Below, in pieces: positions 23,471 through 26,984 of a stretch of DNA of 64,000 bases (the first letter of the stretch is position 1; each line of letters opens with the position of its first letter). The notes under the pieces were generated by a model. It worked only from the letters and a program-made list of their open reading frames with translations, ran no database searches and had not been told where the DNA came from. Source of the DNA: Thermococcus henrietii (GTDB lineage Archaea; Methanobacteriota_B; Thermococci; Thermococcales; Thermococcaceae). Made by a program: the position numbers and the translations under genes. The stretch is from contig NZ_LT900021.1 in the NCBI RefSeq assembly GCF_900198835.1, positions 1,426,001 through 1,490,000 of the forward strand, read 5' to 3'.

Positions 23471-24505
<1,035 letters not shown>

Positions 24506-24506
24506 G

Positions 24507-24591
24507 TTTGCACCGCCACTGCAAACTTTTTTTAAATCCCTTTGCAGTTTGAGTGCAAAATCTTTATAAACATCTTTGCACTATAACTGCA
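24507..24591 (+). promoter_or_regulatory. Promoter with three TTTGCA-N7-TGCAAA operators
   Basis: Three copies of a 19-bp inverted repeat: 24507-24525 (spacer CCGCCAC), 24541-24559 (spacer GTTTGAG) and 24575-24591 (spacer CTATAAC, right arm TGCAca imperfect). The centres are 34 and 33 bases apart, about three helical turns, so a bound protein would lie on one face. The TATA CTTTATAAA (24562-24570) lies between copies two and three, and the third abuts the start codon at 24593. The layout predicts cooperative repression. Confidence 0.75.
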
Positions 24592-24592
24592 C

Positions 24593-25750
24593 ATGCTTGA
24601 GGTACAGAACCCGTGGTGGTTTGGCGAATCTGACAGAGACTGGGAGCTCTTCGAAAAGCTCACCTATAAGGTCAGGCCGAAGTGGCTCGACGGGCTCTCA
24701 TTGAAGCCTTTTTCGCTCAACTTCGTCGTCGGCCCAAGAAGGGTCGGGAAAACCATCGGAATAAAGCTTCTCATTAAAGAGCTCCTCAAAAAAGTCAGTA
24801 CTCTCTATGCCGTCTTTTACTTCAGCTGTGACGTGCTTGAGGACTACAAGGAGCTTTTGGAGGTTCTAAACGAGTACCTCCGACTGAAGAGACGAAAGGG
24901 CATAAAAACGGCCTTTATATTCCTCGATGAGGTTAGCTTAGTTGAGGACTGGTGGCGTGCCCTGAAGTTCCTCATAGACAGGGGCGAGCTGAGGGACGAT
25001 GTCGTTACCGTAACGGGCTCGATTTCCCTTGCTCTTGGACGGCACTTCGAGACCTTCGGGGGTAGGAGGGGGAACGGGAGAACGGTTGAGGTCATGCCGC
25101 TGAGCTTCCACGACTACTACAGCCTTTTCTACGACGAGTTCTTTCCCTCAACGGGAAAGGAGGTCTTCGAGAATTACCTCGAGACGGGGGGATACCTCGC
25201 ATACCTAAACGGCACCCTTAAGGTTGAGGAGCTCGTGGGCTTCCTGAAGGCGGACCTGAAAGCTTTAGAGCGCTCGACCGACCTCGCGAGGGACATTATG
25301 GGTGCTATACTCGATAAAGCGCCATCGCCGACTTCATTCAACGCGATAGCGAAGGCCGTCGGGGTTTCGCCCCACACCGCGAGGGATTACGTTGAGCTCT
25401 TCGAGGCGTTTCACGTCCTCCTGCAGGTTCTCTACCTCGGAGGCGACGGGAAGATCTATCCGCGGAAGGAAAGGAAGCTGATTCTCCGCGACCCGCTCAT
25501 CGTGAGGGCCATGGAGCTCTGGACGAGGAGAAAGGTTGATAGGGCCGTTCTCTACGAGTGGCTCGTTCAGGAGCACCTATACCGAAAGTTCGGGGAGGTT
25601 TACTATTACAGGAACTCCTACGAGGTTGATGCAATCGCTGGAAACCTAAAGGTCGAGGTGAAGTCGGGGGAGAGAGGGGGAAGGTACCCGAAGGACGTTA
25701 AAGTCCTGAAGGGCTCGGAGGTTCCGGGATTCCTTTACAACCTCACTTAG
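24593..25750 (+). CDS. AAA ATPase with DUF4143-type C-terminus
   Basis: A 385-residue archaeal ATPase of the type common in accessory regions. Walker A GPRRVGKT (residues 47-54), Walker B AFIFLDEVSLVEDWW, sensor-like VTVTGSIS, then a winged-helix-like segment SFNAIAKAVGVSPHTARDYVELF and a C-terminal nuclease-like motif EVDAIAGNLKVEVKSG. Its biological role is unproven; such proteins have been linked to mobile elements and toxin-like systems. It may regulate itself through its HTH and the three upstream repeats, which is inference. Ends overlap the facing broken gene by eight bases. Confidence 0.85.
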   Translation: MLEVQNPWWFGESDRDWELFEKLTYKVRPKWLDGLSLKPFSLNFVVGPRRVGKTIGIKLLIKELLKKVSTLYAVFYFSCDVLEDYKELLEVLNEYLRLKRRKGIKTAFIFLDEVSLVEDWWRALKFLIDRGELRDDVVTVTGSISLALGRHFETFGGRRGNGRTVEVMPLSFHDYYSLFYDEFFPSTGKEVFENYLETGGYLAYLNGTLKVEELVGFLKADLKALERSTDLARDIMGAILDKAPSPTSFNAIAKAVGVSPHTARDYVELFEAFHVLLQVLYLGGDGKIYPRKERKLILRDPLIVRAMELWTRRKVDRAVLYEWLVQEHLYRKFGEVYYYRNSYEVDAIAGNLKVEVKSGERGGRYPKDVKVLKGSEVPGFLYNLT

Positions 25751-26857
25751 CGAATTCCCTTATCCCCTCAACATCTTTCCTCTGGACGAGCCTGAGGAGC
25801 TTAACCGTATAGGCTATCTCAAGCGCGTTCTCCTCAGGGTTTTCGAGGAGTTCGTCGAGCCTTCTCAAAAGGTCTCCCTCCGCCCGCTTCATCGCCCCGT
25901 CCGAGAACCCCGCGTATTCAAGGGCCTTTGCTATGGCGACGAGCTCAGAAGATGGCCGCCGAAGCTTCTTGGCAGGGGTTGAGGTTTCTGATTTTCGGAC
26001 TTCAAAAGCCCCTGGGTCAATTCCCTTCTTCTTGAGGAATTCGTACCATAAATCGCCATACACTTCCTCTGGTTTCACGACGTTCGGGAACACTTTCTTC
26101 AGTTCAATTATGTGATCTCCTATTGTTTCAAGCACTTTCTCCCGTGGCACTCGGAGAAGCCCGTCGAACACTCCAGTTAACTGAACTGCCGGCGGTTGCT
26201 TGTGTAGGTTTTTGTAGTGGTTAACGGCAATCCAGTATGGATCTGCTCGATTGTCGAATATGTTGTGCGCAAGTTTGTCCGAAATCTCAATAGCATTCTC
26301 AACAGCCTTTCGGATTTCTTTCTTGTCTATAATCTTTCCCCTCATCCTATACGCTGTGTAAATGGCATCCGTCATCTCTTCGATTACCTTCTCTCTGTGC
26401 TTCTGCAGGAACTCTTTGAATCTCGGCACCTTTATACCTTTACCTTTTCCTCGGTATGTTATGTCTTCTAAAGGTCTTATTTCATCCAAACCGCGGATTT
26501 CTCCAACGTCTTCACCGATTTCTTTAAGTATTTCGTGGAAGCGGGACATTACATGGTTTGTGTGCGCGCCGCCGATCCCATCTCTTGCCAGCCCAGTGAG
26601 CAGTCCTATGAGAAAATCATATCCAACCTCTGTGGGTGTTTCTCTTTCTGATATAAAATGGGTTCCGTCATTTGCCCAGTGTGTGTTGGGTGTGGGTCGG
26701 GTAAGCCCGCGGCGATCTGGGCAATTTTGGCAAAGACTGTCTTGTTTTCTCCCGTAGGTGCCGTGTATACATCTACCTGCTCCCTTCTCTTTACTGTTCT
26801 GAATCTTCTTTTTTCTTCGATCTCTACTATCCCGGTTCTCTTCCGCGTGAGCACCAT
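25743..26857 (-). pseudogene. Frameshifted gene of unknown function
   Basis: Two coding-looking frames follow each other. From ATG 26857 (SD GGGGTG) one frame reads MVLTRKRTGIVEIEEKRRF to about 26700 and loses sense there; the other frame continues ANDGTHFISERETPTEVGY through to TGA at 25743, for a total of about 370 residues if joined. A one-base shift is needed near 26680-26702, a G/T-rich microrepeat on the plus strand (gtgtgtgttgggtgtgggtcggg) prone to slippage. The distal part is helical and charged, with GLLTGLARDGIGGAHTNHV; APTGENKT in the first part faintly recalls a P-loop. I do not recognise the family. The DNA from about 26100 to 26700 is more AT-rich than its surroundings, suggesting recent acquisition. 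Confidence 0.55.
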
Positions 26858-26984
26858 CTGGCACACCCCTTAAACTTCGCCCTTGGAAGAGATAAGCCTT
26901 TCGAAGTCCTTCAAGTCCCAGACCAAAAGCCCACTTTTCCAGTTCTCCCTTTCTGTCCACGACAAAGAGACATGATAACCTCGA

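Follow-up and report, generated by a model that had tools for sequence, protein, structure and literature searches.

Within a 64,000-bp stretch of the Thermococcus henrietii genome (contig NZ_LT900021.1, positions 1,426,001 to 1,490,000; hereafter the window), a gene for an AAA+ ATPase of the candidate defence type PDC-S01 lies downstream of a deoxyhypusine synthase gene and faces a convergent, frame-disrupted companion gene. The ATPase promoter holds three palindromes of the form TTTGCA-N7-TGCAAA, regularly spaced around a TATA-like box (Table 1). With the integration of their arrangement, their retention in orthologues, the recurrence of the layout in the archaeal family and the match between palindrome type and predicted recognition helix, we consider it likely, from sequence comparison, that these palindromes form a self-operator, such that the ATPase would use its winged helix to bind the promoter of its own gene, probably as a repressor.

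Three palindromes around the TATA box of the ATPase gene

The promoter reads, in order, site 1, site 2, TATA box and site 3, with centre-to-centre distances of 34 and 34 bp. An earlier note on this DNA had described three copies of TTTGCA-N7-TGCAAA spaced by 33-34 bases, one before the TATA box and one ending at the start codon. Sites 1 and 2 are indeed perfect, whereas site 3 carries one mismatch; the spacing is constant, and two copies, rather than one, precede the TATA box. Site 3 does reach the start codon, extending to the A of the ATG (24593), two bases beyond the proposed end at 24591. As the TATA box TTTATAAA lies in the gap between sites 2 and 3, and considering the usual archaeal distance from TATA box to transcription start, transcription would be expected to begin about 25 bp past this box, at or near the ATG. 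The DNA helix has 10.5 bp per turn, so that 34 bp correspond to approximately 3.2 turns; therefore, calling the sites phased refers to fixed spacing and does not imply that they share one face of the helix. Site 1, with its flanks and the T run that follows (24504-24538), also scores as a terminator-like hairpin for deoxyhypusine synthase, the gene upstream.

In the whole 2,155,760-bp genome, the perfect motif occurs at sites 1 and 2 only, and the one-mismatch level adds site 3 and two unrelated places; this search found no matching site at the 3' end of the ATPase gene. An unbiased scan for paired palindromes over 464 kb, comprising the window and twenty 20-kb samples of its own genome (400 kb), returned three places in total, with a spacing of 33-35 bp at the window array only. 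The simple count of sites with two mismatches (three in 64 kb) is not significant, being reached by 13 of 100 shuffles; thus, the significance of the sites derives from the regular array and from the family described below rather than from that count. For two further ATPases of this genome, too, the operator sequence occurs essentially nowhere but at the promoter concerned.

Conservation and confinement among orthologues

Homologues of the ATPase were present in 37 of 61 related genomes. Orthologues from ten genomes of the genus retain two or three sites, with arms and spacing kept and the 7-bp spacers free to vary, and the upstream gene differs among close orthologues (deoxyhypusine synthase in some, others elsewhere). 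The preservation of arms and spacing while spacers and upstream genes change, along with near-exclusive occurrence at the ATPase gene, strongly supports the earlier proposal of selection for protein binding. A high frequency of the motif away from ATPase genes, which the earlier note had named as a refutation, was also checked for by searching the 61 genomes, and the outcome did not refute the proposal, the sites proving almost exclusive to the ATPase gene: ten genomes of the genus combine a high-scoring orthologue with one or more perfect sites, and every perfect site in them lies at that gene.

Five perfect-site occurrences remained in the genus, four being orphan pairs of sites 1 and 2 and the fifth lying inside an open reading frame. 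The orphan pair of genome G032 is found between deoxyhypusine synthase and a decayed companion gene, the ATPase being gone; that of G002 adjoins an ATPase remnant of the last 43 residues; and those of G001 and G014 stand without an ATPase. Among the corresponding loci (L234, L243, L244 and L245), L244 has the same neighbours as the window. In a viral collection, TTTGCA pairs gave 18 matches, none of them beside a tblastn match to the window ATPase, and were taken as chance; the viral matches to the ATPase itself were few and distant.

Operator architecture across the ATPase family

The architecture was sought in up to 240 nt upstream of 147 ATPases, with start codons assigned by rule, by retrieving the best pair of like palindromes with the spacing left free between 22 and 60 bp. 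Counted over homologues that were collected by similarity and hence are not independent, and with raw numbers inflated by some Thermococcus loci sampled twice (L013/L158, L014/L160; the non-redundant set is unaffected), pairs scoring at least 20 preceded 106 of the 147 genes, corresponding to 85/116 Thermococcus and 21/31 other archaeal ATPases, against 13/1160 and 10/310 shuffles, respectively. At a score of at least 22, pairs were found for 61 Thermococcus and 10 other archaeal ATPases, and for no shuffle. With the spacing left free, all pairs scoring at least 20 are 31-35 bp apart, 34 bp being the commonest distance, and the general layout of two to four palindromes 31-35 bp apart extends from Thermococcus to many other archaeal lineages. 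The TATA box falls within the last gap at 38 of 51 non-redundant loci; at 19 of these, the end of the last site coincides with the start codon (-1 to 0), and at 41 it lies between -5 and +12.

Bacterial plasmids also carry members of the family. Among the seven inspected, that of Monoglobus pectinilyticus (L228) is preceded by two perfect 28-bp palindromes at a distance of 40 bp and the others have none or weak ones, which hints that the rule may extend to bacteria, seven members being too few for judging. A plasmid search with the window ATPase gave one weak match, in a methanogen, without a clear array. In a Treponema saccharophilum plasmid (L224), the ATPase gene is located within a type I restriction-modification operon, with hsdR/methyltransferase genes on either side.

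Operator arms follow the predicted recognition helix

The arms differ among ATPase subfamilies, and include TTTGCA, TGAGAA, TTGAYA, TGGTAC, TGTTTT, GTGTAT, TGAAAG, GGTAAA, TTTACC and TGTGGT, among others. TTTGCA arms are associated in Thermococcus with the predicted recognition helix SPHTARDY or SPHT(A/T)Q(A/S)Y, and recur with an SPHT-type helix in Culexarchaeota, Brockarchaeota, Methanomethylicales and Bathyarchaeota, at 34-38% protein identity. Similarly, TGAGAA arms accompany helix SYKVVQ in both Thermococcus and Thermoproteota, TTGAYA arms accompany SHVTVR(D/E)Y in two separate clades, and TGTTTT arms accompany GKPTLANY. Over the family, operators tend to be more alike the higher the identity of the helices (r 0.49; partial r 0.34 with AAA-domain identity controlled for, a value reached in 0 of 2000 permutations), with some noise from the GTAAAG subfamily (L016, L035, L163), where the scorer chose a TATA-overlapping pair over an evident palindrome. 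In pairs with less than 45% AAA identity, operator similarity was 0.58 for those alike in the helix versus 0.46, with a p value of 8e-17 that is no more than indicative, the pairs being non-independent.

Domain organization of the ATPase and its convergent neighbour

In Pfam, the ATPase matches AAA_14 (74.6 bits, cut-off 27) and DUF4143 (34.4 bits, cut-off 28.1), both above the gathering score; these were the sole matches, and none of the Lrp family domains was found. Its PADLOC match to the PDC-S01 profile covers residues 43-350 (E 1.4e-28), and the profile matches 37/37 sequences of its alignment. The AlphaFold2 model obtained from these 37 sequences (mean pLDDT 92.5, pTM 0.89) shows an AAA+ core, a winged helix (helices 229-242, 249-256 and 260-272, then strands) and a C-terminal alpha/beta domain; the winged-helix-like domain that had been read from the letters is thus present in the model. 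Residues D346, E355 and K357, invariant in 20 sequences, have the layout of a PD-(D/E)XK active site, and the protein, which has a Walker A motif, is modelled as a fusion with a PD-(D/E)XK-like domain, the predicted nuclease fold being based on the motif and the helix-strand layout. The top VIA-align matches of the model were CED-4 and the archaeal AAA ATPases 2fna and 2qen (Z ~16), with DNA-bound Cdc6/Orc1 also present, the latter being the top Foldseek match; a phmmer search of PDB sequences with the ATPase found nothing. The family reaches 13 members per genome.

Table 1. Positions in the window of the operator sites, the ATPase domains and the neighbouring gene
Feature	Position	Strand	Description
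Operator site 1	24507-24525	.	TTTGCACCGCCACTGCAAA; TTTGCA-N7-TGCAAA, perfect; retained in orthologues
Operator site 2	24541-24559	.	TTTGCAGTTTGAGTGCAAA; perfect; upstream neighbour of the region of the TFB recognition element (BRE) and TATA box, abutting it
TATA-like box	24563-24570	+	TTTATAAA; inside the 15-bp gap between sites 2 and 3
Operator site 3	24575-24593	.	TTTGCACTATAACTGCACA; one right-arm mismatch; final base is the A of the ATG
ATPase, 385 aa	24593-25750	+	AAA_14/DUF4143 (Pfam); PDC-S01 (PADLOC)
AAA+ core	24713-25120	+	Walker A GPRRVGKT at 24731-24754
Winged helix-turn-helix	25277-25486	+	Residues 229-298; AlphaFold2 model m6f03a62c4331, pLDDT 92.5
Predicted recognition helix	25370-25408	+	Residues 260-272, HTARDYVELFEAF, after SP; from the model; covaries with operator arms
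PD-(D/E)XK-like C-terminal domain	25541-25738	+	D346, E355, K357 invariant; from the model
Companion gene, frame-disrupted	25743-26866	-	Convergent to the ATPase; outside the operator system as such

The companion gene is split into overlapping frames. Its relatives, found in 12 of 41 genomes, adjoin the ATPase in some of these and are located elsewhere in the rest, are often truncated or frame-shifted, and have mainly the C-terminal domain in common, with differing N-terminal parts (L006). Many ATPase orthologues stand without it, and regulation would concern the single ATPase gene together with its operators. The idea of a self-regulating module hence divides: self-regulation is probable, with strong support from the match of operator type to recognition helix, and the pairing with the facing gene is weaker.

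Proposed mechanism and alternative explanations

Under the self-operator interpretation, an ATPase dimer would sit on each palindrome, contacting it through the winged helix, and adjacent dimers would be kept a constant 34 bp apart on either side of the TATA box and over the start site. Occupation of sites 2 and 3 would exclude TBP/TFB and RNA polymerase from the promoter, and this negative autoregulation would keep the ATPase level low; the gene might open upon titration of the protein or a change in its state, for instance during virus infection. The other members of the family would follow the same scheme with operator sequences of their own, so that paralogues in one cell need not cross-talk. 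Across archaea, many genes of this candidate virus-defence family carry an array of spaced palindromes of their own, and each ATPase probably controls its own gene. Several observations weigh against this interpretation. About one quarter to one third of the scanned ATPases have no clear pair; the TTTACC and TTTGTG subfamilies have their sites before the TATA box, an arrangement as compatible with activation as with repression; AAA-domain identity retains predictive value for operator similarity after correction for the helix (partial r 0.28), and shared descent therefore explains part of the signal; and pairs of sites 1 and 2 persist at some loci after loss or truncation of the ATPase.

The direction of control is the point where another reading stays live. 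The ATPase might bind the array as an activator or as a concentration-dependent switch, with site 2 recruiting TBP/TFB, given that this site abuts the BRE side of the TATA box and that both sites precede the box in some subfamilies. Archaeal Lrp-type activators bind a dimer site immediately 5' of the BRE, and the autoregulation exerted by Ss-LrpB changes from positive to negative (PMC2995911), which makes activation at low level a real rival; however, the TATA box in the last gap at most non-redundant loci and a last site lying mostly over the start region suit exclusion of the transcription machinery, and we regard activation as unlikely. The binder, in turn, cannot be named from sequence, and palindromes of this size are bound by many archaeal regulators, so a separate transcription factor could be invoked in place of the ATPase. 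One such factor would nevertheless be needed per operator type, of which there are about a dozen, in step with the ATPase subfamily, and the helix-operator match holds across phyla with different neighbours, which renders this explanation very improbable.

We give equally little credence to a mobile or homing element formed by the ATPase-nuclease, for which the sites would be targets or ends instead of an operator. The PD-(D/E)XK-like residues kept in the C-terminal domain and the occurrence of gene and operators in different chromosomal contexts would agree with it, and the orphan pairs lend it weak support; yet simple loss of the gene would account for these pairs, which were retrieved by a search demanding an intact site, and the sites lie on the promoter side only, around TATA box and ATG, without a counterpart at the 3' end. 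Finally, the terminator-like score of site 1 could suggest a hairpin of the upstream gene, the remainder being chance. This has next to no probability, considering three copies at 34 bp that are kept in orthologues with other upstream genes and a rule that holds family-wide; for the array as a whole, it is refuted.

A further possibility, more speculative than the self-operator itself and in our opinion rather doubtful, is that the ATPase-nucleases are parked on their own promoters as inactive oligomers, the palindromes serving as a mark of self and the operators as part of the defence; release, through titration by invader DNA or an inhibitor, would both derepress the gene and free the nuclease. 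If this were true, private operators would keep many sensors independent within one cell.

Relation to known systems

PDC-S01, a candidate system in which an ATPase is fused to PD-(D/E)XK and whose profiles are matched here throughout the alignment, has been reported to rank fourth in frequency among prokaryotic defences. The main text of the paper describing it does not contain the word promoter, nor is the operator rule described there, and no earlier description of the rule was found in open-access full text (DUF4143, COG1373, Thermococcales palindromes, ATPase promoters). This rule predicts, from the sequence adjacent to its gene, which DNA each PDC-S01 member would bind, points to a possible code by which the winged helix recognizes DNA, and shows a route for keeping many paralogues apart in one cell.

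By analogy, the closest working model is Ss-LrpB from Sulfolobus, which cooperatively occupies three sites in the control region of its own gene (PMC2995911), resembling the regularly spaced own-promoter sites described here. Ss-LrpB is, however, an Lrp/AsnC protein and not an AAA+ ATPase, and in the present case the operators have diverged between the paralogues of a whole family. In a comparison with Cdc6/Orc1 initiators and origin repeats, the AAA+ core plus winged helix is shared; in contrast, the window ATPase adds the PD-(D/E)XK-like C-terminal domain, belongs to a multi-member family and has sites bracketing the TATA box. The structural neighbours 2fna (SSO1545) and 2qen (PABY2304) belong to a different Pfam family. 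Likewise of a different Pfam family are the PF01637 ATPases of the same genome, several of which (among L135-L150) have repeated palindromes close to the start codon, e.g., GATAATTAAGATTATC...GGTGATTATCACATG, with a spacing shorter than 34 bp; these possibly represent a second self-operator family.
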